A stretch of DNA of 54,200 bases from a virus. A program made the position numbers and the translations under genes. The notes under the pieces are model-generated. The model was not told where the DNA came from, did not search any database, and saw nothing but the letters and a program-made list of their open reading frames with translations. The stretch is from positions 1 through 54,200 of IMG/VR virus record IMGVR_UViG_3300025543_000035; one strand, given 5' to 3'. Each line of letters begins with the position of its first letter. Within the stretch, counting starts at the first letter, position 1. Shown one piece after another: positions 13,501 to 54,200 of this stretch.

Positions 13501-16500
13501 CAAGATATGACCCATCAAGTGGTGATACTGTAAGAGCGCATACAGAAACACATACAATGTTTGCAATATACGGACCCGGACAGGCTTTCCCGTTTACTGA
13601 ACAAGCATCAGCAAATTCAGATAATCAACCGCATCCCGGCTATGTAGTTACTACAGGAAACACATGGAGTAAAGTACCGTATGGATTGAACTTGCCTAAC
13701 GATATTAAAAATACGGCGAATCAATACTCACCACCTACATTAGCACATCAAAATGCAAGAAATCGTTTCCATTGGCTTTATGGTTGGAATTGGTCACCAC
13801 CACAAGGTATTCCAAACATAGGTGATGCAGGAGGTTCAGGTGTAGGTCTTATGCAAAGACCAGACCACGGTTATCATTATGGTGAACATTTTAATTATGT
13901 TGGAACTGTACATGCTAATAATATTGCCGATATGAAAAAAGCGCATCCTTACAAGCACGTAGGTGCAATGTATTACAGTATAGCGATGGGTGCTGATATG
14001 ACATTCCATATGGACGGTGGTTATCACCCCGGTGGTTCTTGGTTGGATAATCAAATGGCTTTCAACCCTTCACACCCTAAGAGTAATTATGCAATTAAAA
14101 GAGGTACAAACATAGTTCACCCTACAGCGTTTAGAGTATCGGGATTAATGGCTAAGACTATTTTAACAGGAAGTGCTGATGTTGCTTTGTCGCAAGTAGA
14201 ACCAGAATTAGTTGTAGTTGATGCTACTCGATGTCAAAACGGAGAAGAACTTGCTACTATACTTGGACAGGCTATGAATGAGTTCCCCGGAAAGAGTGCA
14301 ATAAAAGCAATGGGTGGTACATTTGCACCATCAATGGGCAATGCAATGCGTCAAGATAGATACGGGTGGATAGAATTAGATTTTACATCATATACAGTTC
14401 CGGAAGCATCAAGTGGAGATTTTGATTTAACAAGTTCGTATGTTTCAGTTAAAGCAACTGTAACAAGTGCTACACAGGCTATACTTGAACAAATACCAGC
14501 ATGTGGGTGGCTAAGAACAAGTGAAGGTGGTGCAACAGGTGTATCAGGTGCGGGAGACATCCCTTGTTATGCACCCTATCATAGTCGTGAAGTAGTTTAT
14601 CAAAGTAGTGCTTGGAGTGTTATATTCGCATTAGCACCTAATAAGCATAGTAAATTACCTGTATTTGAAGATGTTAAAGTATACGAAGATATATTGGCTG
14701 GAAGTTATGTAGCGGCTGATGATATTCCTGATTTATCAAGTGCTCCTTCAAAGTTATATGTGTGGTCAAAAGCGGGTGTTCATCGTTTTAATAATGAAAA
14801 CGAAACAGCAAGGGACCATATGACACAAGTACATTTTAGTGGTATTGTAGATGCTATAGACCGTACACGACCTATAGGTGCTATAGGATGGGCTGGAGAG
14901 CGATACTCGTACCTTAACTCACTAAAGGTTGGTACGGAAGGCTACGGTGCAGGTCTTGGTGCTTGGCATGCTAAACTTGGTTTCAGTCCATATGGTTCAA
15001 GTAATTCATGTATGACAGCATATGGGCATTTACCTCATACAAAACCGATTAAATGGTCACCCGAAGCCTCTCGATTATTGAATGGTGTAGGTGGTACTAC
15101 AACAGGTATTTCCACACCGTATACATGGAATTTAGGTTTAGCGTATAATAATTCCTACTACACAGGAAATGTCGCAGATTATGCTTCACGATATAATGAC
15201 GGTGGAAATAGCGGTCAACCTATTCATCATGATGATAATGACAGTACATCCTTTGATGTAATCAAAAATTTGCATCAACCACAGGGAGTATACAGTCGGG
15301 CATTTGTTGTAATTTCGTATGAAAGCGAATTTCCTTTGGTTGCCAAGCATGACCGAGATGGAATTACTGCTACTGGAGATTGGTTAACTGTAGTATCTAA
15401 GACAAATATAGATTCGGTATCAGCCGCAGATGCAATTAAATTTGCTGGTACTGTTCAATGGGATGAACGTATACACAATAGTGAACGTTTTACTGCACCT
15501 GCGAATGCTGGTCCTAACGTAGAAGCATTGATTGCTACTTCTGGTGATGGTTCACCACTTCCCTTTGCTAATACGGCACTTGATTCATACGTTGAAGGTG
15601 GTATAACAGTAGCACCTGTTGCTAATGATGCTTTACTTGCAAATGCAGAACCATGTTTTGCTGAAACTGGGGATTTATTCTCAGATATTGATGAGAGTCC
15701 CGGTACTGGTGATAGAAGAAACTTGAGATTGGAGTACTATCTTGCGGCTTCTCTTCCTTCTGATGGGTCGGCTGGTGCTACAAACGTTACATCGAGATAC
15801 TCTTATGGTCGAGACTTTTGGTGGGGAGATATAAATGCATACAAAGCAAATGAATATTCTCCTGCTCGTAATTTTTCAGTTGAAAACGTGGTATGGAAAC
15901 GCATGGATGGTGGTAATCTTTCACTTCCAGCAGTAAATGCTCGTGGATTAGGTGCAGTACCATTTGTTACAAGAGTGAGTAGCGACGGTACTAACGCATA
16001 CTTAACTGGTGAAAAATTACTTGGAAACAATAGATTTACCTTTGAAACAACGAATAACGCTATGTTCCCAATTATTCAAGCACAGGAAATAAGTCATCCA
16101 CAATTAGCGCAATTGCATCCAAATAGATTGCGAGATATTTTAGATATACCAAATGAAGAAATACAGTTTGAAAGTATTGAAGTTTTAGATGATACAGGAC
16201 AAGTACACTCAATAGAGGGTGGCTCACCGTTTGGAACTATAGTTCGTTCCTTTAAACAGGTATCAGATAGAACCGCAGAAGGGTTAGCACCAGCAGAAGT
16301 AGGAAGTGGTGTCGAACCGAATTTGAAAATACAATTACCTAATCCTGATTCTATACCCGGAAATATAATTATTCGTAGTGGTTTTGATAGATTACAAGCC
16401 TATCAAACAGAAACTATGGGTACAGGTGGTATGCTAAGACCCGGAATAGATTCGGACATAGATGGTATATTTACTGATACAACAGACGGACCACGATTAG

Positions 16501-19500
16501 GTCCTACATTTAGTGACCATGAGTACGACCATATTAGCCAAAATTTATCAGAAGAATTGTTCCCTGAAATGACAAGAAAGGGATGGAAATCTTCAACAAA
16601 CAATGCACCACTAAAGACCTCATACGAACTTCATGACCGTTCATTATACTTCCATGTAACAAAGAACGGTAACTCTCACACGCACCGTTACCCAACAACA
16701 TACTCACACGCTAACGGTGTTGTGAATAATGATTTAACAGGTGTATCGTTTGTTGGAACTACTTTAACTGTTAATAATGCTGTTAATGCAAATTTGTTTG
16801 TTGGTGGATTCGGCAATGCTGATTGGGTTGGGGGTGCATTGGTAAAGAAGTATCTAAGACTACACAATCCAACTACTGGAGAAAGCGGTGTAGCCTCGTT
16901 TACTAACATTGCAGGAAGTACGTTTGAAAATTGTAAAGGGGATGCAAACTTCACTTCTATGGTGGCAAGTTCAATTACTGCTTGTAAGGTCGTTCCTTCT
17001 TATTATGTACCTGCTGGAAGCAATCGCTTCTTTGCCGCAAGAAGAATGCGTGACCACGCAGAAGTGAGTGGGAACAGTCCTGATATGGCTCATTCATTGT
17101 ATCTAACTGGTGGCGGTACACAAACACCTTACGAGACATACAAAAAACCAATTCTTACACCTATGGCTGTTCCACGAATGGGTCATCACTTTGTCAATGC
17201 TTCACAGGTAATGTTACCCGGTCATTGGGCGCATCCTGCTTATCAGGGACTATACGGATTACATAGAGCAGAACGTTCAGCCTTTGTTGCTAATACAGAA
17301 AAGACACTCATTAATGATACAGCATTAGATGTTTCTACAATTCCTTCTTCTACTACTGACCAAATAACAGGATATGACCCAAGTATTACCATAGGAACTA
17401 TGACCGCTACTCCGAGTGGACCGAGTGATATTCACGGTGGTGCGTTCACGTTAATGTTTGAAACTAAGGTCAAGTATGATGGATATGGGGTTCTTGCATC
17501 TAAAGGTCAAGCAGGTGTTGTAAACTCAAAGGGTGGTCATACAATCGTATTGGAAGCCGCCGCTACGTACACCTTGAAGCATCACTTCCCTGACCCAAGT
17601 GAAGTCGGTGCTTATCAAATTGTTATTCAACCAAACATACACAAATCACAACTTATCGGATTCCATGAAAACGGACCTGCAACAGATGTACCCGTTGCAG
17701 GTGGTGCAACTGGAAGTGCAATTGAATTAACAGGACAGCAGGTTGCATTAGTTGTAGGTATACGAGAACCCGATGCAGGTACGGGTGGTTTGGGACTTGT
17801 ACTTGCCGAAGCAGTAATGGCAGATGTACGAGGGTGTGAATTATTCATTAACGAATTAATGATAGACCACGACCCTGACCACGGAAGCCAATTTACAAAC
17901 ATTCCACCACTTATGTCATACAATCCGTTGGGTGTACAATCATCAGAATCACCCGCATTCACACGTCGAAGTTTACCTTACAATCGTAGTATGTTTGCAT
18001 ATGCAACACCGGGAATAACAAGTAACATTCCGTGGTGGTCTATTGTACATGAATCAGGACCAGAAGATTCATCGGCAGATGGAATACGTCATTTGTCTAT
18101 TCATAGACTCGACAATTACTATGAGTTCTTGAGAGCAAGTGCTGGAAGTATAGGATGTCAATTAACGCTTGGTGGTTATCCTTCCAACTATCCTGACCTT
18201 TATTCTAATGTCCTTGAGAACATCAGTCTCGCACCTGTATGTACTGTAGTGAGTAAAATAGGTTCCCCTGTTACTGTAATAACTGTTGATGATGCAAGAG
18301 GATTCCCTAAAGTGCCTCATTACGGTATGAAATTAGAATACACGGATGCTGACGGTGTAAGAAGAACTCACACATATACAGAAAGAAGCGGAAATGACGC
18401 TACTTATATGAACAAACCATATCGTTTTACTATTACTGCATCAAGTAATTTTACAAATAATTTAACTGTGGGAACAAAAATTCGATTGACTCGTGCTTAT
18501 GACTTTAGACCTGCTGGTACAATTTTCAATGATACTCGTACAAGCGTTATCACGCATTCATTATTAGCAGACAATCAAGCATTCAATGGTTCAAGAGATA
18601 CCAATAGTCTGCACATGGGTGATGCGTATTTGTGTCTATGGCATCCTAATCTTGGTCGCCCTCATACATTCTATTCTGATTCTTCAAGAACGTGGTTGAA
18701 TCCACTTACTGATAGAGCCGTACTTTCAAAACCATTGAACAGTATGCCCGAACATTTTGAAACTGTACATTACCACGACGCAACATATTATGCAAGTTTA
18801 GGTCCTTTCGCATTCAATATCGCTACGCCGACTAAACCCGGTACTATACTTACTAAAGCACCATCAGGTGCAAGTACTCCTACTGCCCCTATGACTGTAA
18901 TAGGTAATGGAACAACAAATGCATTTAGCGGTACTGTTTCTCTTACTGCTAATCAAATTCTATCTCAAAATACTACTGGTTCTTTACCTGCTCTCACAGT
19001 ATCAGATTTGATAAACATTGACGATGAAACTTTTTCGATTACTGCTATAACAGGGTCGCATACAATTACTTACACTAATCCTAACGGCGGCGGTGCTCAA
19101 TCAATCCTTGCAACTGTATTTACATTAGAACGAAGTGCGGCACATACAACTATTAATTCTAATGTTAAAACTGGTGCTGATGGTTCTACATCTTCTGCAA
19201 CGCAATCAAGTGGTGCGCCATTGCTAAATCATTATTGGCCTTGTGGAAGCCGTGGTGGTCCTTTAACGAGTAGACTCGATGGGTATGGATATGTATCAGC
19301 CTCGTGGGATTATCCATTAGAATATACTTCTGATGGTCCCGTGTGGGTTGACCATGATGACGATGGTTCATACGCTGTATCATTGGGAATAACAAAATCA
19401 GTTTATGATAACTTTACAGATGCTACTTGTGATACTACAAATACAGATGCTACTGTTACAATGGATTCTACTACTAAGTTAGCAGTAGGCATGGGAGTAA

Positions 19501-21605
19501 GTGGTACAGGGATAGCAAGCGGTGCAACAGTATTATCTATCACGAATGCTACTACATTTGAATTAAGTGCTAATGCTACTGCCTCTAATTCAAATACAAC
19601 TCTCACCTTTACTCCTGTAAAAACACGTACACGGCCATTCGGTTACCGCTTTTCTCTACGTCAACCATACAACAAACCCCAATGGGCTTTGTATGGAATG
19701 AGAGCATACCGAGAAGCGAGTATTACTGGCTCTAACACTATTGCTGGTTATCAACACGGTCCTCTTGTACAGCAAGAAACTCAAACATGGACATATGCAG
19801 GTGGTTCAGGTTTGAGTAACACTACTTATCCTAATACATACGTTGGTGTTATGGAACGACAAACGAACTTTAGTGGTATGCTTGGAGTCGATAAACCAGA
19901 ATGGCAAGTACGTTATGGAAACGGTATGCGTATGACAAGAGCATTTGGATGCCCTGTACGAACATTACGTAATGCATCTACAGTAGTAAGAGATTGGTGG
20001 GGCGATGCTACTGGAAAGAGTATTGATTCAATTCATAATGCTGTAAAATACTATCTTGTTGATTGGTGGGGTAACACTCGTGGTGAAGATGTACGTCGTT
20101 ATCCTGTACGTGGGTTTGGTATCAGACCTGCATGGGACAGTAGTGATGCTTACGAGTACGATAGAGTAAGCGACAGAACTCCATATCAACGTCTATACAA
20201 TAATGGTCAACCGCTTGTTAACTTGAAAACTATAACTGATTTGACCGATTCAAATGTAGACGATGGAACAAAAGTACCAAGATTCGGTGGTCGTCTTAAC
20301 AATGTTAACAATAACGATGCTAATAATTTAGTCGATGTATTTATGCCAACACACGCTCAACGAATAGGAGACATGGGTAACGGACGAGGAGTTCGATACC
20401 CAACTGCATTTAATGAAGATTTGATTACTGATGTTGATGAACCATATCATACAACAGGTGTAGTGTTGTCACACAATACCGCTGAACCGAATACATCAGA
20501 AGGTTTGATACGAGCAAGAAATGACGTACTGCAACCTAATGAAGTTTCTCGTGGAATAAGTGCTCGACTCGGTATAGATGAAAATGGACTGTTAAAACCA
20601 GAAGCCGTAGCAAGCGATAGAGTAGAAGATTTCAGCGGTGAGACACCACACAAAGATGCTGTAAGTCGCTCAAGTCCACGTATAGGTATTGATGGTGAGA
20701 ACATAGAAGGTGTGGACGACAACATGATGGCAATCAATACCGAAGCACATAGTCTACACACAGACAGAAACGTGGGACAGCGTGTTGTTTTACAAGGTGG
20801 ATTGACCGCTGGTTCGCAAACATTAGGTAACTACGATTTGACAAGTTTAACCTTCGCTGGACAGCCACAAGGTGGTGTCATGCGTTATACACACACTTCC
20901 AACTTCAATCCTTTAGGCGGTACATATTTGGCCGAGACTCGTAATTTCTTGTCTCCTGTAAGCGACAAGGATTGGGGTGGTATAAGTGGGTCAAATAAGA
21001 CAGCGAATCCATACGAAACAAATGTTTTCGTTAGTAGCGCACAGACTAATTTTACAGATAAAAGTATTACGTTTATGCTAAGAACTGTAAGACTACTTGA
21101 CAAGCAACACGTAGAAGTTTTCAGACCTAACAACGCACTTCACTCATCATCCCCGCAATATGGTGCGAATTACTTCTCCGCTACTGGTGGAGGAAAGTAT
21201 GGTCTATTCTTGTATGAAACTACTAACGGTAGAGCAAGTTCAGGATATTATATCCGAGCAACTAATCCTGATACCAATCCTCCATATGCACCAGCCTACG
21301 TAATGAACATATCATCAAATGAAAGTGTACCAGTAAGTAAAGGACCAAAAATTATTGGAATAAGTGATACGTCGTTCGATTCTTCATTACTCAATAACGA
21401 AGTTACAAGACTTGTCATAAGTGAAAATACATTGCAACATTATCGTTCCGATGCACCGAGAAGGCGTTCTCGTATTGATAGTGATGAGAAGGTAAAGCGC
21501 ATGGACTTTACCGTACTCCCACGATTCTCACAAGCCCTGCACCCTAAAGGACATAAAGGAGATGTAACCTACAACACATCAGACCACACAGGTGATGGCT
21601 CATGA
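4599..21605 (+). CDS. Giant 5668-residue tail fibre/adhesin-like protein
   Basis: One uninterrupted frame of 17,007 bases encodes about 600 kDa, nearly a third of the window. ATG 4599 follows GAGATGAT. Residues ~1-230 form a LamG/concanavalin A-like lectin domain (YFFDGVSDSIIIPQ, FTIEAWVIPD, IELYVNNVLIAKE, HVYLGGKGGEFRGAIESIHF). A second LamG-like stretch lies at ~4280-4440. Residues ~4936-5007 hold a module common in phage structural proteins (VGMGVSGTGIASGATVLSIT). The rest is beta-rich, Asn/Gly/Thr/Ser/Tyr-rich and cysteine-poor, with many HNP/HPG/WG turns. No signal peptide or membrane helix, so it is a virion part and not a secreted protein. Position after the distal tail gene suggests a host-recognition fibre or tail-tip megaprotein. 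Confidence 0.7.
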   Translation: MVAIGRTSHAYFFDGVSDSIIIPQSRFNSTGVERNDNKLPLSTLSDIELENTIGSISNADFTIEAWVIPDCGGIVAKRDGQFTLEIGTVDTAGPAKFTLFMETGVGVQAIEVTSATPESNRWKGTVFPSQEFGGIHESYNRFNTSSYGEASGLNFKNRPLYHVVGTCINNSIELYVNNVLIAKETVPDFYRISDTNGHVYLGGKGGEFRGAIESIHFSNSAGSNIFSNEAPTLGDTSTGMYRFEEPLDIVETVYTMNAVTAASNGSTTTITIGASDAQSLIAKLTGKAYDSSSPTTDFTASPYSMGKYEVKDFYSTPGTSATLSIAHTPYNLLINAGSLNRNTFKPNQKPPERVRLHSINGSSGVITISSIHVDFVNGTDGLRGLLHSRTADIDNYFVVVGADLLVDNGTGKPYQPPHYGTQIFDKTGQMVLDESETQSHGLVYSSRMATTTTDATNPFAVVWPTTLDELFQVGHSGRHALSHITGHEYMRKLPKPNAMNVDQLMDGSADLVSMHYDSSQKNLRDTIKMNSLIDVYAENVRGVVSSHLNSSSVASLVNNGLPVAARELIAIGGAGFDVRPFFLKGPVPNKYNDESTRLYHLRPEKESRIALLKVPALQSSHDLAPFVEIHYNAIDLTGASMGISGPMLMIEKTVPACSHILSGSTRVLDVITSDLANTELYSAGGVVTLTKLSGKSYALLNDGHLVGDNTGGNEVDNELDFSNTPAVYTPVSDVSAEPASPPKAINKSHNSGNHESVYHRLILTPRRNDIATTSATKTMRLNVHKTNSTAGQFDIGTTNLSAHMFEVFDIIDNKVSPNLAEVQLFIQPSNKNRTNQFHNLVDLFSDNDSFCRFNLLQLISRGTVRSVNESFDDSNTQHTEVIIRGIGEKVLSQNVNVTGSGSPDSHVVKEIEPNSPVVTVTLGGPGQGAVNTKPTFDPATLMRLPGSTRRICAVQAVIVTAKEGSNANVNTITVQPLNNNSPDIASWGTYCFPKKGRIYLADGASAEYVKKNGTGFVFSSGTIADRTFLSGNGTAYATFYEWALATGLLVSTAGSGATVTDDTSIYIYNEDNFTDDSLVQDGSTVNDRMFQSMNDVNHDYQLGTQYSSTRAMVEIPFFPQQFFEHETEGIFPGPDNSMKIHIDATYTAHSWNPTPVGRRADDIQTADRSANSAYTYNIHGKNFVSSSTIQQIVYDSSGKFFKIFVSHPEMFPPVDTGVTEYRNLKSLHRFRRAFIPNGMWCIYVNDPSTDGYLKVWENETATNNVNSGSYATGFFESAIPQTAIHIAQGYRSENLIPLDSDMETPSSDLEARSPYYYDNANVQTQGGNLDYGLRQYVSAIEIKEGPLSNPHAPKILSKRATSTIVKGSDNGSGTYSIILEDTENFPELVEYSRNSSNELSLAEGDMLYIGEVILSDGTSHEGMYFGKKSLTNNLDVVNWKCTTTSLTLEGATFRLKSAGRSLYTLSSPANSLTEENTAVTFLPDSSEQWTIAANASADSTTSIQITPATANRLAHANTIGMNIRKDDELYFEDASDSNIIKYLGKVSQIISKFAGSTTNTTITLTANNVNEVTTGDKIRLSAASVMAVDFDAILNKTWINPYAQGGMRNGDTVWMNMTLNNPHAVEGLFCKSRGVLNEGLVWKGFNGGQGALATRPRDSIPLENFLIGDTCVETAQNLVQHINKTIEMNYEAMGLNASQAPSVAYVDPYLASKGHARVLLYDVGHDREFIAFHDLHMQVQSSAATPNIGFNRNIVHAGGVTKLDKFLVSHNGGAPHYFTTQIDVANGYPSENKFLRSTQQSKFIESAYAHNIANQNQGLFSIENPATSGNNAFLKGKGHGHFVHSGYMNGYTADTFTVSDNALPRVEPAVASLYWANEVHSISRSMSGSEFVRSLRTHRETQDPVLKTHTFRDASTLFDTPDGTRCISAFLCLKGNRNLELDLTNHDESRLKHLPHWSQMDFVRRLVLDCGEIGVKEGVTDIEAATRELVRMINQAGAKHGRTQVHTIQQGVGDVAITGSTHDPAPWWFTDESFNSNDKGTHMGYVRAHLGRVVEDINGNEGYSIIIHSTIPGASGRNFCVWLDNSKGQASYKPLFLIGHGGRFRNFWCQPDETSGENMHPAPMPLNKHGRPFAPITSLREYTLQEEPAEPFTNNHDVARRDSDNDSRTVRNISGHIGALNHNTVSDESFEIQGVATSYVEGLRAGKTAVGRINFGGLVASGIPGFAPDAGEYGLGVRGDRRFDFKYGEAKIPGGTAPTDITAYTGNANPQKLREDKVGESNLYGFRFTDHLGNNYGVRYIYRKFGENFSNQNTVLPSTLDDEIVVYINDDDVSMGGFTIGGHMLGYGEPSGRIDNTTLQFSKWRGNEWRGVYAPEAGVDSIVTWDGSADTLTVFLQAPFNTGNTDLNNHPDILGYLGYPKTNGVIHLHDTFTGTTAKGFIGNVLSYESRTVNDLTGAHVFYGIRGDGFTSSHHVTSASASSAGTVNDTSKVQPHASNNVFRVLMSSRINWTTLLTDEVLAYATMEAINHPNPNIEEGTTVDCRHLYACDGRTLGDWGVTEDAIIVRAFNPQRGSTPLSKMFSATMHTDFGIQAAHLEYGEYTTLKQVSSTGKHTFTASNVLNKPISDADLDKNRQVDCGYLPKTILQIRTKGKGYHANTATPVLVDSFNNAISTKAWKENLKGETFTSISGDHILPALSNPMILVDTIATGTDTMTLVGSKITNALIPAGQEGTSVNSLAKKPSYGERLRYYYQEKQFSLLESKNGSNSLTEIIWNDLFSNDDWVSKIGAKTVSNQEHVLQRFAEQQIGGYRSYGSVDSEPLIYFKGGRDSNDHSVPLYFGGGFSGVVMDVNDGTENDYSDFYTHPYSTGPTGTAGIQNANEISTSFAIVDCNAILSFFPATALLNQHRASINSPFFNSANRVTTDLDNGSFAVNSALPAPVKARYTAGTILQRPVPVILRVANPNARYDPSSGDTVRAHTETHTMFAIYGPGQAFPFTEQASANSDNQPHPGYVVTTGNTWSKVPYGLNLPNDIKNTANQYSPPTLAHQNARNRFHWLYGWNWSPPQGIPNIGDAGGSGVGLMQRPDHGYHYGEHFNYVGTVHANNIADMKKAHPYKHVGAMYYSIAMGADMTFHMDGGYHPGGSWLDNQMAFNPSHPKSNYAIKRGTNIVHPTAFRVSGLMAKTILTGSADVALSQVEPELVVVDATRCQNGEELATILGQAMNEFPGKSAIKAMGGTFAPSMGNAMRQDRYGWIELDFTSYTVPEASSGDFDLTSSYVSVKATVTSATQAILEQIPACGWLRTSEGGATGVSGAGDIPCYAPYHSREVVYQSSAWSVIFALAPNKHSKLPVFEDVKVYEDILAGSYVAADDIPDLSSAPSKLYVWSKAGVHRFNNENETARDHMTQVHFSGIVDAIDRTRPIGAIGWAGERYSYLNSLKVGTEGYGAGLGAWHAKLGFSPYGSSNSCMTAYGHLPHTKPIKWSPEASRLLNGVGGTTTGISTPYTWNLGLAYNNSYYTGNVADYASRYNDGGNSGQPIHHDDNDSTSFDVIKNLHQPQGVYSRAFVVISYESEFPLVAKHDRDGITATGDWLTVVSKTNIDSVSAADAIKFAGTVQWDERIHNSERFTAPANAGPNVEALIATSGDGSPLPFANTALDSYVEGGITVAPVANDALLANAEPCFAETGDLFSDIDESPGTGDRRNLRLEYYLAASLPSDGSAGATNVTSRYSYGRDFWWGDINAYKANEYSPARNFSVENVVWKRMDGGNLSLPAVNARGLGAVPFVTRVSSDGTNAYLTGEKLLGNNRFTFETTNNAMFPIIQAQEISHPQLAQLHPNRLRDILDIPNEEIQFESIEVLDDTGQVHSIEGGSPFGTIVRSFKQVSDRTAEGLAPAEVGSGVEPNLKIQLPNPDSIPGNIIIRSGFDRLQAYQTETMGTGGMLRPGIDSDIDGIFTDTTDGPRLGPTFSDHEYDHISQNLSEELFPEMTRKGWKSSTNNAPLKTSYELHDRSLYFHVTKNGNSHTHRYPTTYSHANGVVNNDLTGVSFVGTTLTVNNAVNANLFVGGFGNADWVGGALVKKYLRLHNPTTGESGVASFTNIAGSTFENCKGDANFTSMVASSITACKVVPSYYVPAGSNRFFAARRMRDHAEVSGNSPDMAHSLYLTGGGTQTPYETYKKPILTPMAVPRMGHHFVNASQVMLPGHWAHPAYQGLYGLHRAERSAFVANTEKTLINDTALDVSTIPSSTTDQITGYDPSITIGTMTATPSGPSDIHGGAFTLMFETKVKYDGYGVLASKGQAGVVNSKGGHTIVLEAAATYTLKHHFPDPSEVGAYQIVIQPNIHKSQLIGFHENGPATDVPVAGGATGSAIELTGQQVALVVGIREPDAGTGGLGLVLAEAVMADVRGCELFINELMIDHDPDHGSQFTNIPPLMSYNPLGVQSSESPAFTRRSLPYNRSMFAYATPGITSNIPWWSIVHESGPEDSSADGIRHLSIHRLDNYYEFLRASAGSIGCQLTLGGYPSNYPDLYSNVLENISLAPVCTVVSKIGSPVTVITVDDARGFPKVPHYGMKLEYTDADGVRRTHTYTERSGNDATYMNKPYRFTITASSNFTNNLTVGTKIRLTRAYDFRPAGTIFNDTRTSVITHSLLADNQAFNGSRDTNSLHMGDAYLCLWHPNLGRPHTFYSDSSRTWLNPLTDRAVLSKPLNSMPEHFETVHYHDATYYASLGPFAFNIATPTKPGTILTKAPSGASTPTAPMTVIGNGTTNAFSGTVSLTANQILSQNTTGSLPALTVSDLINIDDETFSITAITGSHTITYTNPNGGGAQSILATVFTLERSAAHTTINSNVKTGADGSTSSATQSSGAPLLNHYWPCGSRGGPLTSRLDGYGYVSASWDYPLEYTSDGPVWVDHDDDGSYAVSLGITKSVYDNFTDATCDTTNTDATVTMDSTTKLAVGMGVSGTGIASGATVLSITNATTFELSANATASNSNTTLTFTPVKTRTRPFGYRFSLRQPYNKPQWALYGMRAYREASITGSNTIAGYQHGPLVQQETQTWTYAGGSGLSNTTYPNTYVGVMERQTNFSGMLGVDKPEWQVRYGNGMRMTRAFGCPVRTLRNASTVVRDWWGDATGKSIDSIHNAVKYYLVDWWGNTRGEDVRRYPVRGFGIRPAWDSSDAYEYDRVSDRTPYQRLYNNGQPLVNLKTITDLTDSNVDDGTKVPRFGGRLNNVNNNDANNLVDVFMPTHAQRIGDMGNGRGVRYPTAFNEDLITDVDEPYHTTGVVLSHNTAEPNTSEGLIRARNDVLQPNEVSRGISARLGIDENGLLKPEAVASDRVEDFSGETPHKDAVSRSSPRIGIDGENIEGVDDNMMAINTEAHSLHTDRNVGQRVVLQGGLTAGSQTLGNYDLTSLTFAGQPQGGVMRYTHTSNFNPLGGTYLAETRNFLSPVSDKDWGGISGSNKTANPYETNVFVSSAQTNFTDKSITFMLRTVRLLDKQHVEVFRPNNALHSSSPQYGANYFSATGGGKYGLFLYETTNGRASSGYYIRATNPDTNPPYAPAYVMNISSNESVPVSKGPKIIGISDTSFDSSLLNNEVTRLVISENTLQHYRSDAPRRRSRIDSDEKVKRMDFTVLPRFSQALHPKGHKGDVTYNTSDHTGDGS

Positions 21606-30035: not shown

Positions 30036-30050
30036 AATTCCACAACCTTT

Positions 30051-30072: not shown

Positions 30073-30771
30073 CTATACCTTTTTTCTTCTTGCTTGGCGT
30101 ACCTCTTCTTCACTTGTTAATACTTTAACGAGTAAACTACGTCGGGTGTCGCCCAACCCTTTTACCTTCTTTAGTGATTCAGGGAATACCATTTCTTCGA
30201 TACTGCCGCATTGTTCTAACAAGCGTTCAGCAATCTCCCTCCCAATGGAGGGTACAGCCAACAGCATATCCAAACGGATGTCATTAGACGAGACACGGCG
30301 TAGTGCGTGTGCGCCATGCTTGCTCGCTGGCTTGTGGAGTTTGTCATGTAGTTTCACTACAAACATTGCCGCCTCACTTAGATTAGGCGTGTAGAATACT
30401 TGGCACTCAAAGTCAGACATAACTCTCGCTATCGTACCCATGAGTTCATTTTGTATTCGTGAATATGTAACCTTCTTACCATTCTTCTTTGCCATCGCAA
30501 CGTACTTGTCAATGGACCCGTGAACGACTAAGAAGAATCGCTCGTAGTTGGCATCCATGTTATCGAGTTGTCGCCATAGATGACCGTTGTGTGATGATTG
30601 GAATAGGTCGCCAATACTCTTCGCTTCTACAAGCGCACCACCGAGTAAGTAGTCTCCAACAAGTAATGGCTTACGGACTATGTTCAGTCCCGCCTTCGTT
30701 GCTCGTCGCTCTATGGACTCGCATAGGCTTCCTCTCTCGTTGCTATCAATTATCAAATCAGGCTTAGGCAT
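30073..30771 (-). CDS. XPF/ERCC4-type structure-specific endonuclease
   Basis: 232 residues. The N-terminal nuclease domain shows LIIDSNERG (6-14), GDY (39-41) and VEAKSIGDL (48-56), matching the ERCC4 order of D-x-R-E, GDY and ERKxxxD. The core Arg of ERK is replaced by Ala here. The C-terminal part has a helix-hairpin-helix pair (LLAVPSIGREIAERLLEQCG, then VKGLGDTRRSL). XPF/Hef/Mus81 proteins cut branched DNA such as forks and flaps, so this enzyme probably resolves replication or recombination intermediates. TAATG overlap with the upstream zinc protein. It closes the long PCNA-PolB-primase operon, ending just before the next promoter. Confidence 0.9.
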   Translation of the reverse strand: MPKPDLIIDSNERGSLCESIERRATKAGLNIVRKPLLVGDYLLGGALVEAKSIGDLFQSSHNGHLWRQLDNMDANYERFFLVVHGSIDKYVAMAKKNGKKVTYSRIQNELMGTIARVMSDFECQVFYTPNLSEAAMFVVKLHDKLHKPASKHGAHALRRVSSNDIRLDMLLAVPSIGREIAERLLEQCGSIEEMVFPESLKKVKGLGDTRRSLLVKVLTSEEEVRQARRKKV

Positions 30772-32105: not shown

Positions 32106-32408
32106 TCACCGGAATGCTCGTAGGAAGTCGTCTAAGTCTTGTTTCAATTTTTCCATTGTTTCTACAATCTCATTATCCATCAGATAACGTGCGTGTATAG
32201 TATAGAGAATATCGAGAGGACCAACCGTATCAGGGAAGTCTGTCTCTTCATCTAACCATGAATCAATCGTGGTTTGTCTGTATGATGTACGAATGAAAGG
32301 AACCCTGTTAGGTAAGTTACCATTCTCTTTGACTATGATTCTTATCGAATAGTCATTATCTAAAAATTCCTCTAAGAAACGTTGTATTGCTAATCCTTGT
32401 GCTTTCAT
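32106..32408 (-). CDS. Conserved-looking protein of unknown function
   Basis: 100 residues. ATG 32408 has a strong site (GGAGGAGATATA before it). Mixed alpha/beta with a helical C-terminus (IVETMEKLKQDLDDFLRAFR). No motif recognised. Encoded between the primase and the Cas4-like nuclease, overlapping the latter's stop by one base, so it is probably a small partner in the replication-recombination operon. No function is proposed. Confidence 0.6.
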   Translation of the reverse strand: MKAQGLAIQRFLEEFLDNDYSIRIIVKENGNLPNRVPFIRTSYRQTTIDSWLDEETDFPDTVGPLDILYTIHARYLMDNEIVETMEKLKQDLDDFLRAFR

Positions 32409-33424
32409 TATATCTCCTCCTTTATGTTGTCTAAGTAGTCATCGGTGAGCGACCAAAATTCACAGTCGCTTTTGTAATCACACCAATTGCATTTTAGTGT
32501 CTGTTCCTCCATTGGAACTCCTTGTTTCAATCTTCCTAAGAACGGCTCAGGTGGAAACTCCATGTTCAGATGAGCCTTTACTAACTTGACGAGATTGTTT
32601 TCTACGCTACGCATAGCCAACTTCCCCTTCTTATCAGTAGCAGACTCATAGTGCAACTTCGCACCAGTCCCGCCTTCTATGCCCCCACCCGGAAACTCCC
32701 ATCCCCAATGGGTGATAGGGAGTAGTTCATGGTGTGGACTGTTTTCCAACATCATCTTGTAGAATGCCATCTCCTTACGCATGTTTCCCGGCTTGCTACT
32801 GTTGTACTTACCAGTCTTTAATTCCATCAAGGCAAAGCCGTTCTCTTCGCTTTTGAAGAGTGTATCAATGAATCCTGATAGATGAACAGGAATAGGCTCA
32901 TCATCAACGATGACATACCTATTGCCATGAATGTTTGACTCTACGCCTACAGGTCGCCAGTCCTTACCCTTAGTAGCGAGTAACCGTCTGAACTGCCAAT
33001 CAAGCCATTGTTGAATCTGTTCCTCCTCACCGAACTCATACGGTTCAGGAGGGGTGGGCGCAGATGATAGGAAGAGTTCTCTCGCAGTATCTATATCATC
33101 TGTACGTAGTATCTCACTCTCCTGTTGGCTTGTGAAGTTACCCCAAAACCATTCCATGAGGTCGTGGACATTCAATCCACGAGTGTGATAATAACGGCTC
33201 TCGCTTCGTAGTCCCTTGAACTTCTCAAGATAGTATTGTTGTGGACACCAGCCGAATGTACCTATGCTGGACTTTGTAATACGGAGAATCTTGTCTTGGT
33301 CCTCCTTTGGATTCCATGCGTATGTACTACGCTTGTACCAGTCCACTTCTTCTGTGTGACCTGTCTCCTCCCCATACTCGTCTATCAATTGGCGACTATC
33401 ATCACCAGTAGGATTCCATCTCAA
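32408..33424 (-). CDS. Cas4/RecB-like PD-(D/E)XK nuclease with Fe-S cysteines
   Basis: 338 residues if started at TTG 33424, which overlaps the upstream stop (TTGA) and follows GGAGATGA; an in-frame ATG at 33502 would overlap the neighbour by 82 bases. Domain signs: SSIGTFGWCPQQYYLE near the start (first cluster Cys), GFIDTLFKSEENGFALMELK plus TGK (the D..ExK catalytic core), a QxxxY-like helix (MAFYKMML), and CNWCDYKSDCEF near the end (three more cysteines). This is the Cas4/AddB-like layout: a 4Fe-4S cluster with a nuclease. It probably resects DNA ends for recombination in replication; no cas genes are nearby, so it is not part of CRISPR. Confidence 0.85.
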   Translation of the reverse strand: MRWNPTGDDSRQLIDEYGEETGHTEEVDWYKRSTYAWNPKEDQDKILRITKSSIGTFGWCPQQYYLEKFKGLRSESRYYHTRGLNVHDLMEWFWGNFTSQQESEILRTDDIDTARELFLSSAPTPPEPYEFGEEEQIQQWLDWQFRRLLATKGKDWRPVGVESNIHGNRYVIVDDEPIPVHLSGFIDTLFKSEENGFALMELKTGKYNSSKPGNMRKEMAFYKMMLENSPHHELLPITHWGWEFPGGGIEGGTGAKLHYESATDKKGKLAMRSVENNLVKLVKAHLNMEFPPEPFLGRLKQGVPMEEQTLKCNWCDYKSDCEFWSLTDDYLDNIKEEI

Positions 33425-33609
33425 TCTTTCATCTCCATCTCGATAAGTTTCTGTAGGTATACGGCTAAGTCCATTGCTTCTTCTTGTGCGTGTATGAGCC
33501 ACTTAAGACGAGATAGTTTCTCATCCTCCATACTCACCCCGTACTTTGCAAGGCCGACCTGTGCTCGTTGTTGTATCTTCTCGCATACTTCATCTTCTAT
33601 TCTACTCAT
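33421..33609 (-). CDS. MazG-like small phage protein
   Basis: 62 residues; ATG 33609 follows GGAAGTGATAAG. The segment QRAQVGLAKYG, then SRLKWLIHAQEEAMDLAVYL matches a short family common in phages with an EEAxDxAVYL helix, related to the all-alpha MazG/dUTPase-like nucleotide pyrophosphohydrolases. The EExxD set could bind a metal and act on a nucleotide, but the protein is shorter than typical MazG enzymes (~100 residues). Probably a nucleotide-pool enzyme; activity is unproven. Confidence 0.6.
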   Translation of the reverse strand: MSRIEDEVCEKIQQRAQVGLAKYGVSMEDEKLSRLKWLIHAQEEAMDLAVYLQKLIEMEMKD

Positions 33610-49607: not shown

Positions 49608-49886
49608 TCATTCCTCCTCTTCACGTAGGAATGCGAAATCATCTTCCGACCAATTATCAGTCTCCGTGAATTTATGGAATCGAGATATGCCGCACCTATC
49701 ACATTGCATGTGAACTAAGTAACCGTAGTCCATCGTATGTGTTTCCACGATAAGCCAATTATGAGCATCTTCTTTACAGATGGTTGTATTGTAAAGTGAC
49801 CGTTCAAACTCTTCTAAGAGACTCATTCTCTCTTTCACTTCTTCTAACTGCTTCGCTATTTTCTTTTTTTCTTCGTCTATTTTCAT
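49608..49886 (-). CDS. Coiled-coil plus zinc-knuckle protein
   Basis: 92 residues. N-terminal basic/acidic coiled coil (KIAKQLEEVKERMSLLEEFE), then a metal-binding segment with C, H, CDRC (residues ~37-72). The start overlaps the previous gene by 4 bases. Function unknown; fits the series of small metal-binding proteins in this region. Confidence 0.55.
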   Translation of the reverse strand: MKIDEEKKKIAKQLEEVKERMSLLEEFERSLYNTTICKEDAHNWLIVETHTMDYGYLVHMQCDRCGISRFHKFTETDNWSEDDFAFLREEEE

Positions 49887-49987
49887 TCTTTCATCTCCTT
49901 ACAACATTCTTCTGCATCGTTCTTGTCGGGGAAGCCACGACCACAGTTGCCGCATTGCCATTCGCTGAATAGGTATGCGTCGGTCAT
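49883..49987 (-). CDS. 34-residue Cys-rich mini-protein
   Basis: Starts ATG 49987 behind GGAGGTGACGGC and encodes MTDAYLFSEWQCGNCGRGF, then PDKNDAEECCKEMKE. CGNC and a CC pair suggest one zinc site. Its start lies in the first of four identical 20-base junction repeats; its end overlaps the next start by 4 bases. The coding status rests on the strong ribosome site and coupling. Confidence 0.5.
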   Translation of the reverse strand: MTDAYLFSEWQCGNCGRGFPDKNDAEECCKEMKE

Positions 49988-50003
49988 GCCGTCACCTCCA
50001 CGC
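49984..50003 (-). repeat. Gene-junction repeat, copy 1 (VEVTA/start)
   Basis: Plus strand TCATGCCGTCACCTCCACGC. On the minus strand it encodes VEVTA-stop and supplies GGAGGTGA plus the ATG of the next gene. Confidence 0.85.
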
Positions 50004-50079
50004 AATCACACGATTGGCGAGATAATACAATCCAACCACATGCTATACATTCAACATAAAAATCCTCTTCTTCACTCAC
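49984..50079 (-). CDS. 31-residue Cys-rich mini-protein ending VEVTA
   Basis: Starts at GTG 50079 (overlapping the previous TGA) behind GGAGGTGACGGC and encodes MSEEEDFYVECIACGWIVLS, then RQSCDCVEVTA. Four cysteines (CIAC, CDC) suggest a zinc site. It begins and ends in junction repeats, like a cassette. Function unknown. Confidence 0.5.
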   Translation of the reverse strand: MSEEEDFYVECIACGWIVLSRQSCDCVEVTA

Positions 50080-50095
50080 GCCGTCACCTCCACGC
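50076..50095 (-). repeat. Gene-junction repeat, copy 2
   Basis: TCACGCCGTCACCTCCACGC; the next start is GTG instead of ATG. One base differs from copy 1. Confidence 0.85.
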
Positions 50096-50309
50096 CTCGT
50101 AGTTTTTCTTTCGTTTCGTCAATCTTGTTTTGAATAGCCTGTTTGTATTTCACTATACCTTCCTCCGTTATGCGATTCTCTAAATCCTTTATCCTTTGTC
50201 GTAATTGAAATCTCTTAACACTCGCTCGGACTTTCTCTCTCCCTTCGGGAGTAGCCTTGTATCGTTTGTTTGCTTCCGCTTTCTTCTCTTTGCTACTGTA
50301 TGCCATCAC
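50076..50309 (-). CDS. Small basic helical protein ending VEVTA
   Basis: 77 residues from GTG 50309 (or 76 from ATG 50306), with GGAGGTGACGGC upstream. Very helical and basic (KKAEANKRYKATPEGREKVR and VKRFQLRQRIKDLENRI). The N-terminal pattern KKAEANKRYKATPEGREK resembles a short module found beside HNH and DNA-binding domains in phage proteins; no nuclease motif is present. The C-terminal VEVTA is encoded by the shared junction repeat. Confidence 0.55.
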   Translation of the reverse strand: MMAYSSKEKKAEANKRYKATPEGREKVRASVKRFQLRQRIKDLENRITEEGIVKYKQAIQNKIDETKEKLRGVEVTA

Positions 50310-50325
50310 GCCGTCACCTCCACGC
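50306..50325 (-). repeat. Gene-junction repeat, copy 3
   Basis: TCACGCCGTCACCTCCACGC; identical to copy 2 over 20 bases; next start GTG. Confidence 0.85.
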
Positions 50326-50467
50326 TTCTGTCGGGATGATTGTTTATTTCTTCCAAGTGTTCCTTGAGCATACCGTGAGTTAATGAAAGGTCTTCAAGTA
50401 TTCGTTGTATCTGTTCCATCGCCACTTCGTAGCCTTCTGCTAATCCATCCATGTATGTTTTATTCAC
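50306..50467 (-). CDS. Small acidic protein ending VEVTA
   Basis: 53 residues from GTG 50467, which overlaps the TGA of the upstream gene, with GGAGGTGACGGC before it. Reads MNKTYMDGLAEGYEVAMEQI, then RILEDLSLTHGMLKEHLEEI, then NNHPDRSVEVTA. A longer frame to 50521 would run through the junction repeat. Helical; unknown function. Confidence 0.5.
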   Translation of the reverse strand: MNKTYMDGLAEGYEVAMEQIQRILEDLSLTHGMLKEHLEEINNHPDRSVEVTA

Positions 50468-50483
50468 GCCGTCACCTCCACGC
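50464..50483 (-). repeat. Gene-junction repeat, copy 4
   Basis: TCACGCCGTCACCTCCACGC; identical to copies 2 and 3; next start GTG. Confidence 0.85.
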
Positions 50484-51015
50484 CTTGCCACCAGTCGGGG
50501 GCAGGTGTTCCCTTCTCCCACTTGGCGAACTGTTTGGAATGGTAATAGCGACGGTATGCTTCGATAGCAAACTTAGGATAAGCATGGTACACAACCTCGC
50601 CATCGACAGGTTCAGGTCTGTACTCATCGGGCATAGCCAGTGCGAATGGTGTGAAGTCACCCATAGGTATGAGAAGAATCATCTTTAGCATTGTATGAAT
50701 CGGACCGTGACATGCGTGAACATCTACATTGTTGAAACGACGGTCATATTCTCGCAGTAATTCAACACCGTGTAAAGCAAGCCAACCAAAGTTATCACGA
50801 GAATCTCCCGCCCATACTGTGCATGGATGATGAGCGTAGCCACCCTTGTAGGGCTTACCTGCTTTGGTGAGGGGCATCTGCTCATCAGTTGCACCATGCC
50901 TACGCAGGGCTGATGCCATCATCTGTGCGACCTCGACGCACATCTTTGGAACATGCTTGTCGCAATGCATTCGTGCCGCAGTAATTGGGTTTCTATCTAA
51001 TACAAATATGTTCAT
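50464..51015 (-). CDS. Conserved phage protein, pyrimidine-dimer glycosylase-like by family name
   Basis: 183 residues; ATG 51015 follows GGAGGAAGAGGA. The start MNIFVLDRNPITAARMHCDK followed by HVPKMCVEVAQMMASALRRH and HPCTVWAGDSRDNFGWL matches a family common in tailed phages. I recall it as sometimes annotated as a pyrimidine dimer DNA glycosylase; that activity is unconfirmed here. It ends in VEVTA from the junction repeat. A DNA-repair or modification role is plausible in this context. Confidence 0.6.
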   Translation of the reverse strand: MNIFVLDRNPITAARMHCDKHVPKMCVEVAQMMASALRRHGATDEQMPLTKAGKPYKGGYAHHPCTVWAGDSRDNFGWLALHGVELLREYDRRFNNVDVHACHGPIHTMLKMILLIPMGDFTPFALAMPDEYRPEPVDGEVVYHAYPKFAIEAYRRYYHSKQFAKWEKGTPAPDWWQGVEVTA

Positions 51016-52966: not shown

Positions 52967-53554
52967 TTATACTTCTTCGTCTGTAGGGAAGTAAACGTCA
53001 TTTGGTTTGTTACCTATGACATCTGATAATGGTACATTCATTTGTTTAGCAATGCCCTCAAGATATTCTTTGGCATTGTTGTGAATCTCTACAACCTTTG
53101 GAGGTCGTTGATATGGGAAGGGTTCATCTTCGGGTATCAGTCCATCTAACTGTCCATCCACGAAAGCGGCGTATACGTTTTCAAAGACATACCCATCCTT
53201 GTCTAAGATGTCCCAATCCCAATTTTCCACCTTTGCATAGACTGATTTGTTACTCACATACATTGCTAATGGAATTAATGAAACCCATGATACAGGAACA
53301 TCGAATGTTTCAGCAATGTGCTCATATAATGCGTGTCCAATTAACCTTTTATCATAAGGGGTATCGAATATGAAGTCAGATTGTGCGGCGTACATCGTGT
53401 GATAATATGCCTTCTCTTCTGTGAGTTTGAGTAGATTACCCTTGAGTTTTTCAAAGAGCAGTATTGCCTTTGATAATTCTTCATGTTCAATCTTGTCTAA
53501 CGCTTTTAGCGAGACATACAGTTTACTTATCTTCTCTTCTAATATCCATTTCAT
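52967..53554 (-). CDS. Unknown protein
   Basis: 195 residues. N-terminal coiled coil (KISKLYVSLKALDKIEHEEL, AILLFEKLKGNLLKLTEEKA), then a mixed domain with conserved-looking Trp, Asp and Pro residues (VENWDWDILDKDGYVFENVY). No family recognised. The 3' end is near the kinase-like gene with a 6-base gap; the start overlaps the tandem repeat gene's stop. Confidence 0.5.
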   Translation of the reverse strand: MKWILEEKISKLYVSLKALDKIEHEELSKAILLFEKLKGNLLKLTEEKAYYHTMYAAQSDFIFDTPYDKRLIGHALYEHIAETFDVPVSWVSLIPLAMYVSNKSVYAKVENWDWDILDKDGYVFENVYAAFVDGQLDGLIPEDEPFPYQRPPKVVEIHNNAKEYLEGIAKQMNVPLSDVIGNKPNDVYFPTDEEV

Positions 53555-53814
53555 TCAATCATCTCCTTCAACCAATGCTTCCATGTATCAAGCCAATACT
53601 CAATATCTTCTTCGGGCTTTGAGAACTTCATGTCGTCAAGCATCATCTTCATTCCTTTACGCAACCGCTTGACTTCGGCTAAGAGAATTGGTGCGTCGGC
53701 CATAAGTTCTGCATCAGCATTATTGTTAGCCGACTGTATGGACATAGCCGAGCCATCGGCCTTTCGCCAACCCTTAGCAGGTGTATGTCCTACATATTTG
53801 TCTGTGTCAATCAT
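53551..53814 (-). CDS. Ea22-like small phage protein, copy A
   Basis: 87 residues: MIDTDKYVGHTPAKGW then NADAELMADAPILLAEVKRL. The pattern of an N-terminal TP-x-x-W segment followed by a D-A-x-L-x-x-x-A-P-x-L-L-A-E-V-x-R-L-R helix is common in phages (Ea22-type, function unknown). It is a tandem relative of the next gene, with the same first residues and shared DNA across the start. Ends ...KEMIE. Confidence 0.6.
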   Translation of the reverse strand: MIDTDKYVGHTPAKGWRKADGSAMSIQSANNNADAELMADAPILLAEVKRLRKGMKMMLDDMKFSKPEEDIEYWLDTWKHWLKEMIE

Positions 53815-53826
53815 TCAATCACCTTC
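53777..53826 (-). repeat. Diverged direct repeat over gene start, copy A
   Basis: About 45-50 bases (5' end GCAGGTGTATGTCC on plus) covering the start of gene copy A and the end of copy B. The second copy is at 54061-54110. A 25-base core is identical. It marks a tandem duplication. Confidence 0.7.
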
Positions 53827-54098
53827 TTCAATTCGCTTCGCCAAAATCTCCAATCCTCATCCATGTCTGTAACAATACCAGCAATTATTCCACGCAACCG
53901 CTTGACTTCTGCTAAGAGAAGTGGTGCGTCTGTGATGAGTTGTGCGTTGGCTATCTGTCCGTCATCATTATTCTCATAACCAAGGGGTTTCCCATTCGGG
54001 CCAACAAGACCCGTCTGTATCTGTCCATGACGGGGAAAATCATAATCCGCTTTCCACGGCGCAGGTGTGTGTCCTTCGTATTTGTCTGTGTCAATCAT
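53811..54098 (-). CDS. Ea22-like small phage protein, copy B
   Basis: 95 residues: MIDTDKYEGHTPAPWKADY ... ANAQLITDAPLLLAEVKRLR. Same family as copy A. The middle differs (glycine-rich QTGLVGPNGKPLG, absent from A), so the two have diverged after duplication. ATGA overlap with copy A. Ends ...KKVIE. Confidence 0.6.
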   Translation of the reverse strand: MIDTDKYEGHTPAPWKADYDFPRHGQIQTGLVGPNGKPLGYENNDDGQIANAQLITDAPLLLAEVKRLRGIIAGIVTDMDEDWRFWRSELKKVIE

Positions 54099-54110
54099 TC
54101 AATCATCACC
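54061..54110 (-). repeat. Diverged direct repeat over gene start, copy B
   Basis: Pairs with 53777-53826; differs at a few positions in the GHTPA coding region. Covers the start of gene copy B and the end of the partial edge gene. Confidence 0.7.
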
Positions 54111-54200
54111 TTCCATTCGCTTTGTTCTTCATTGCCGTACTTCACCATAACACGATGGCCTTTTTCAAGCATCCATGTTTCACAGTCTTCGTAACAACGA
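54095..54200 (-). CDS. Partial gene at right edge
   Basis: The last 34 codons of a gene that starts beyond the window: CYEDCETWMLEKGHRVMV, then KYGNEEQSEWKVMIE, stop overlapping the next ATG (ATGA). It ends MIE like copies A and B, but its visible part does not share the family pattern. Function unknown. Confidence 0.6.
   Translation of the reverse strand, partial: RCYEDCETWMLEKGHRVMVKYGNEEQSEWKVMIE

Follow-up and report, generated by a model that had tools for sequence, protein, structure and literature searches.

Four copies of one 20-nt sequence lie between minus-strand genes of a 54-kb magrovirus-like contig, and each copy ends one gene and begins the next. Why should otherwise unrelated small genes be joined by the same sequence? 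The original prediction, made for the 54,200-nt stretch analysed here (hereafter the window), offered two answers: that the repeat is a homologous seam at which genes are inserted and lost while translation stays coupled, or that the residues VEVTA that it encodes are a shared C-terminal tag. The joins behind phage mosaicism have usually long since decayed by the time they are observed, and it is an old question whether short homology guides them or whether they form at random and are then selected.

The sense-strand sequence of the seam is GCGTGGAGGTGACGGC[G/A]TGA. All four predicted copies were found where they had been placed, at 49984, 50076, 50306 and 50464, the first of these with one mismatch; the window contains no further copy at up to three mismatches, and none of 100 dinucleotide shuffles of the window yielded a match. 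Read on the minus strand, the seam is GC GTG GAG GTG ACG GC[G/A] TGA, which is V-E-V-T-A-stop of the upstream gene. Within it lies GGAGGTGA, a full archaeal Shine-Dalgarno site 4 nt before the start of the next gene, and at every window seam the GTG or ATG start of that gene overlaps the TGA of the previous one. The copy at 49984 differs solely in having A as the first base of its start codon (ATG for GTG), which is silent in both frames. The predicted combination of VEVTA-stop, ribosome site and start codon in each repeat is also what the translated genes contain, with C-termini of ...WWQGVEVTA (183 aa), ...DRSVEVTA (53 aa), ...LRGVEVTA (77 aa) and ...CDCVEVTA (31 aa). ORFs of 31-183 residues had correctly been described as joined by a common module; a fifth gene, of 34 aa, starts at the 49984 copy and ends without a seam. 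The array thus reads anchor (183 aa), seam, 53 aa, seam, 77 aa, seam, 31 aa, seam, 34 aa, ordinary genes. The features are as follows.

50464 to 51015, minus strand: anchor gene, 183 aa, pyrimidine-dimer DNA glycosylase-like (PF03013; Pfam E 1.7e-6)
50464 to 50483, minus strand: seam 1, exact, anchor to cassette 1
50306 to 50467, minus strand: cassette 1, 53 aa, GTG start within seam 1; a relative occurs in L021 with other neighbours
50306 to 50325, minus strand: seam 2, exact
50076 to 50309, minus strand: cassette 2, 77 aa; relatives only in seam contigs L384 and L385
50076 to 50095, minus strand: seam 3, exact
49984 to 50079, minus strand: cassette 3, 31 aa, a mini-protein with CxxC
49984 to 50003, minus strand: seam 4, ATG variant
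49883 to 49987, minus strand: terminal cassette, 34 aa, with a zinc-ribbon-like cysteine pattern; start in seam 4, end without a seam (...CCKEMKE)
49608 to 49886, minus strand: first post-array gene, 92 aa, with a non-seam ribosome site
32408 to 33502, minus strand: PDDEXK (RecB/Cas4-like) exonuclease, candidate recombination gene; the family is present in 17 of 17 seam-bearing records tested
30073 to 30771, minus strand: ERCC4/XPF-type nuclease, second candidate recombination gene

Cassette 1 has 53 aa when read from the seam GTG (50306-50467); the mechanically called 71-aa ORF at 50306-50521 extends it upstream. The last seven residues of the anchor (QGVEVTA) derive from the joining sequence, and most seamless anchor homologues align only as far as residue ~175-176. 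The anchor gene is present in about 50 fetched loci and, without a seam, in many more distant relatives.

The three genes by which a magrovirus can be recognised, encoding a B-family DNA polymerase (DNA_pol_B, 1.6e-45), an archaeal-type chaperonin (Cpn60_TCP1, 1.6e-121) and a clamp-loader type AAA ATPase, are all present in the window contig, and together with the PDDEXK and ERCC4 nucleases they form a set that we take to be magrovirus genes. Magroviruses are tailed dsDNA viruses of Marine Group II archaea, which are among the most abundant archaea of the ocean. The closest named polymerases among the matches listed are those of haloarchaeal tailed viruses, at about 23%, and an array nearly identical to that of the window occurs in L068.

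Other features of the window include a single open frame of 5668 aa (4599-21605, plus strand) and, within a coding region at 2488-2739, three diverged direct repeats of 48 nt, spaced at a period of 102 nt. A promoter-like element with the minus-strand sense TTTATAAATCGGCAAAGAGAA and an archaeal TATA-like core stands ahead of minus-strand gene runs, with copies at 30042, 37872, 41752, 47601, 48451 and 52242. Another repeated stop-start junction, of sense GGAGATGATTGAATGA, lies between tandem paralogous genes at 53551-53569, 53811-53829 and 54095-54113, with a variant at 49883-49901, and is possibly a second, weaker seam; AAGGAGATGATTGAATGA occurs in 51 IMG/VR stretches, several of which are the same magrovirus contigs, and some carry two.

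Had the 20-mer been found only once in relatives, the idea of a seam would have lost its footing. The exact sequence is present in 65 IMG/VR loci, many with 2-4 copies, and extra copies at 1-5 mismatches lie nearby; its ACAGC variant was found 16 times in IMG/VR, and a control 20-mer with the same Shine-Dalgarno site and permuted flanks was found in a single locus. Exactly one in-frame ORF, running from the start to the stop of the next seam, makes up 116 of 126 unique inter-seam intervals. NTGA, almost always ATGA or GTGA, ends 183 of the 188 array seams; GCGTG precedes the core in 117 and ACGGC closes the seam in 143. Because the search demanded the core GAGGTGA, it is these flanks, rather than the invariance of the core, that constitute evidence, and because the loci were gathered partly by exact 20-mer search, the apparent conservation of the seam is inflated. 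A scan with the 16-mer GGAGGTGACGGCRTGA supplied only a few extra loci, the matches listed being mostly unrelated single ones. In the genome-contig scan, the matches listed were scattered single hits in unrelated, often GC-rich bacteria, and no cellular seam array was among them. Four Poseidoniales/Euryarchaeota MAG contigs (L280, L334, L341 and L363) carry an identical single-copy, non-array junction (CGGTGGAGGTGACGGC; CGGTGGAGGTGACGGCATGA) that resembles the viral seam; CGGTGGAGGTGACGGCATGA has the same upstream sequence in all four, and could be a host gene pair.

We compared 179 unique seams column by column. In pairs that share only the downstream cassette, identity rises from background ahead of position 1 to about 0.9-1.0 at position 21 and beyond; in pairs that share only the upstream gene, it is 0.94-1.0 across positions 1-12 and at background from position 21. 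Identity therefore switches within positions 5-20. Positions 1-4 accompany the upstream gene, which together with the switch profile places the crossovers within GGAGGTGACGGCRTG; position 17 carries G or A at random, a difference silent in both frames. Individual pairs of contigs behave in the same way, with about 95-100% identity up to a seam and background beyond it. L017 and L049, for example, are 98.5% identical over 800 nt after the seam and 39% identical over the 25 nt before it, and L022 differs from L017 by a 391-bp insertion of two cassettes with a seam at each end. As read from the sequences themselves, the anatomy of the array, the exchange of cassettes and the switch inside GGAGGTGACGGCRTG are apparent.

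Gain and loss at the seams, which the original prediction had singled out as a check, can be followed at the site between the anchor and the clamp loader, where the same two flanking genes enclose zero, one or more cassettes. The site consists of one seam and no cassette in L034, L045 and L178; it holds one cassette (107, 266 or 329 bp) in L067, L010 and L091, and other cassettes in L044, L033 and L009. Among these loci, identity of the clamp-loader DNA is mostly 88-98% (L009 is more distant, at about 71-88%), whereas that of the anchors, where a long alignment is possible, is mostly about 70-80%, indicating that the seam divides different histories. High-identity segments in the seam-bearing loci have 119 sharp ends, of which 30 fall in seams; as seams cover 1.4% of the sequence, the enrichment is about 18-fold. 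A further 45 fall at non-seam overlapping junctions, which cover about 4% per sequence and are also enriched. We conclude that exchange at gene boundaries is general in these viruses, and that the seam probably raises it without being its sole cause. With identity switching at the seam, empty and filled sites, and enriched mosaic boundaries, a seam for gene insertion and loss is well borne out.

The genes that lie between the copies are unrelated to one another, as had been anticipated, and their neighbours change almost at random. Across 59 arrays with 186 seam junctions, clustering gave 133 gene families. At least two upstream partners were found for 35 of the 37 families that stand behind a seam in at least two loci, and at least two downstream partners for 28 of the 30 recurrent families in front of a seam. 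The seams join 166 distinct gene pairs, compared with 176.6 expected under random pairing; gene order in the arrays is close to random. In a protein-based test comparing seams with non-seam overlapping junctions of the same loci, the gene downstream of the same upstream gene was conserved in 1 of 118 seam pairs and in 121 of 375 non-seam pairs, and with the anchor as the upstream gene the next gene was conserved in 7 of 940 seam pairs, all of these being counts of related pairs that are phylogenetically non-independent. When the downstream gene was held constant, the neighbour was conserved in 9 of 61 pairs at seams and 120 of 621 elsewhere, which does not separate seams from other junctions. 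A version of the test using ungapped nucleotide windows was dropped, since it was confounded by indels at gene ends. Among the genes that move as seam cassettes is a DNA methylase (PF01555, about 248 aa; L033 195-938, and L066).

The terminal cassette of the window bears on how a gene may acquire a seam. Its end is GAATGTTGTAAGGAG|ATGAAAGAATGA, with a non-seam ribosome site (GTTGTAAGGAG|ATGAAAGAATGA). This cassette also occurs in L014, L022 and L032, where it ends in a seam; in the latter two the end is GAATGTTGTAAGGAG|GTGACGGC (GTTGTAAGGAG|GTGACGGC), after which another cassette begins. These few sequences suggest that a join inside the shared Shine-Dalgarno core would convert one type of end to the other.

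If selection acted on VEVTA as a C-terminal tag, say for degradation or targeting, the identity of the DNA would follow from the peptide, and 120 of the 188 array seams do encode VEVTA. However, the first residue of the tail varies freely (W, L, M, E, K or P), T and A vary too (VEVKA, VEVTE, VEVKE, VEVSA, VEVTV), and the terminal cassette of the window has no such tail. The silent third base of ACG has undergone about 25 changes, against about 31 at three neighbouring non-silent sites, so that constraint on the peptide, and hence conservation of the VEVTA codons where the repeat drifts, is at most weak. The 'EV' is the Shine-Dalgarno site read in frame. We therefore consider a tag very improbable and conclude that the tail is a by-product, mostly of reading the Shine-Dalgarno site in frame, for which a selected peptide is not needed. 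Still harder to credit is the suggestion that the arrays are assembly chimaeras formed at a short repeat. Every contig is metagenomic, but recurrence of the same arrays in independent datasets (window/L068, L016/L037, L024/L053, L028/L052 and L059/L064) speaks against chimaeras, as does the repeat length of 20 bp, much shorter than ordinary reads.

A different account would have the seam arise repeatedly by convergence, as the best Shine-Dalgarno and stop-start for the host, with illegitimate recombination making the joins and selection keeping those at gene ends. The core GGAGGTGA is the complement of the archaeal anti-Shine-Dalgarno, boundaries are enriched at non-seam overlapping junctions as well, and the Poseidoniales MAG contigs have a similar single junction, all of which fit convergence. 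We nevertheless regard it as unlikely, given that GCGT before the core and CGGC after it are kept in most seams although neither is Shine-Dalgarno, that permuting the flanks reduces 65 loci to 1, that ribosome sites vary at the other overlapping junctions of the same loci, and that, behind a given gene, neighbours turn over far more at seams. Precise in-frame cassettes, tandem arrays beside a fixed anchor, empty sites and near-random order would also be expected if a putative recombinase read the seam as an att-like site, in an analogue of the integron. Against this, neither tyrosine recombinase (PF00589; 0 of 17, with 14 of 14 controls positive) nor serine recombinase (PF00239; controls positive) was detected in 17 array-bearing records of up to 109 kb, although these records may be fragments, which makes the absence weak evidence. 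Moreover, the seam is asymmetric and the four window seams show no folding advantage over shuffles (z -0.4 to 1.2, RNA parameters), its first four bases go with the upstream cassette, and a join is also possible at the GGAG common to the seam and the non-seam site. Site-specific recombination thus seems more doubtful than convergence.

We favour a dual-purpose seam, a translation signal that also provides 16-20 bp of homology at which recombination inserts, deletes and replaces cassettes, and give this reading a probability of about 0.78. As a translation signal, the seam contains the final codons and TGA stop of one gene, the Shine-Dalgarno site, and the overlapping GTG or ATG start of the next; because stop, Shine-Dalgarno and start all lie in the seam, a cassette would keep its frame and its ribosome site wherever it lands. 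Genes downstream of seams are probably translationally coupled, judging from this anatomy. As DNA, the seam is a stretch of homology common to otherwise unrelated small genes, and recombination between seams, whether in co-infecting viruses or among the copies of a single genome, would insert, delete or replace cassettes, perhaps using the viral PDDEXK/ERCC4 nucleases or host enzymes. Rad51/RecA, RecT and ERF had no match in the 17 array-bearing records, again possibly fragments, with working positive controls, and the seam had no Rfam match. With no recombinase detected, no supported fold and no Rfam match, homologous or annealing recombination over 12-20 bp is the best reading, and base-pairing between seams presumably drives the exchange. 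A bolder form of the dual-purpose reading, to which we give somewhat less than even odds, is that the ribosome-binding seam has itself been selected as the recombination site of a recombinase-free cassette platform. Such a platform would be an open, integron-like pool of mini-genes that any gene could enter by one crossover in the Shine-Dalgarno core, as is suggested by the terminal cassette, with its seam end in L022 and L032 and its non-seam end in the window.

Viruses of abundant marine archaea swap, gain and lose small genes at seams, in integron-like arrays in which no integron enzyme was detected. The many joins are recent, and a single identifiable sequence marks them. The arrays point to an exchanged pool of more than 100 mostly tiny, unannotated families, many of them cysteine-rich and one a DNA methylase. 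The cassettes are probably accessory host-interaction genes, and the pool is a promising source of host-takeover and counter-defence proteins.

Our search, with most subscription journals outside it, found no description of a seam array, and the available part of a magrovirus survey (PMC10160649) contains no mention of recombination, cassettes, mosaicism, repeats or Shine-Dalgarno. Four known systems invite comparison, the first three within the available parts of their sources. In the lambda nin region (Kroger and Hobom 1982, via PMC8022706), small non-essential genes are joined by ATGA overlaps. Seam arrays share with it the tight packing of small genes, the ATGA stop-start overlap, gene content that differs among relatives and exchange of genes at a boundary sequence; unlike nin, which is described there by the ATGA overlap only, they have a common 20-nt seam with Shine-Dalgarno and flanks and, in an archaeal virus, hold as many as 7 cassettes from a set of over 100 families. 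In T4-like phages, PeSL regulatory cassettes mediate modular shuffling (Arbiol 2010, Comeau 2014, via PMC4503421), and are likewise repeated regulatory sequences between genes. They consist, however, of an early promoter and a stem-loop terminator, whereas the seam, of about 20 nt, is translational and fully coding, with no supported fold. SAS repeats, at the ribosome sites of many unrelated non-structural genes in cluster K mycobacteriophages (PMC3203893), resemble the seam as short asymmetric repeats near start codons that are conserved beyond the Shine-Dalgarno site, in the seam at columns 1-4 and 13-16; the two work alike, without a claim to common ancestry. The seam differs from the SAS consensus GGGATAGGAGCCC and its virus is not a mycobacteriophage, and SAS repeats are dispersed, with no exchange described in the available part, whereas seams stand in tandem arrays, and comparison of relatives shows exchange at them. 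Integron cassette arrays, which occur in archaea (PMC9668308) and in phages (PMC9892861), are similar in their tandem, small, single-ORF cassettes at a fixed site and in their near-random order. Neither an integrase nor attC-like hairpin sites were detected in the seam arrays, where cassettes are held together instead by a coding join that carries the ribosome site.
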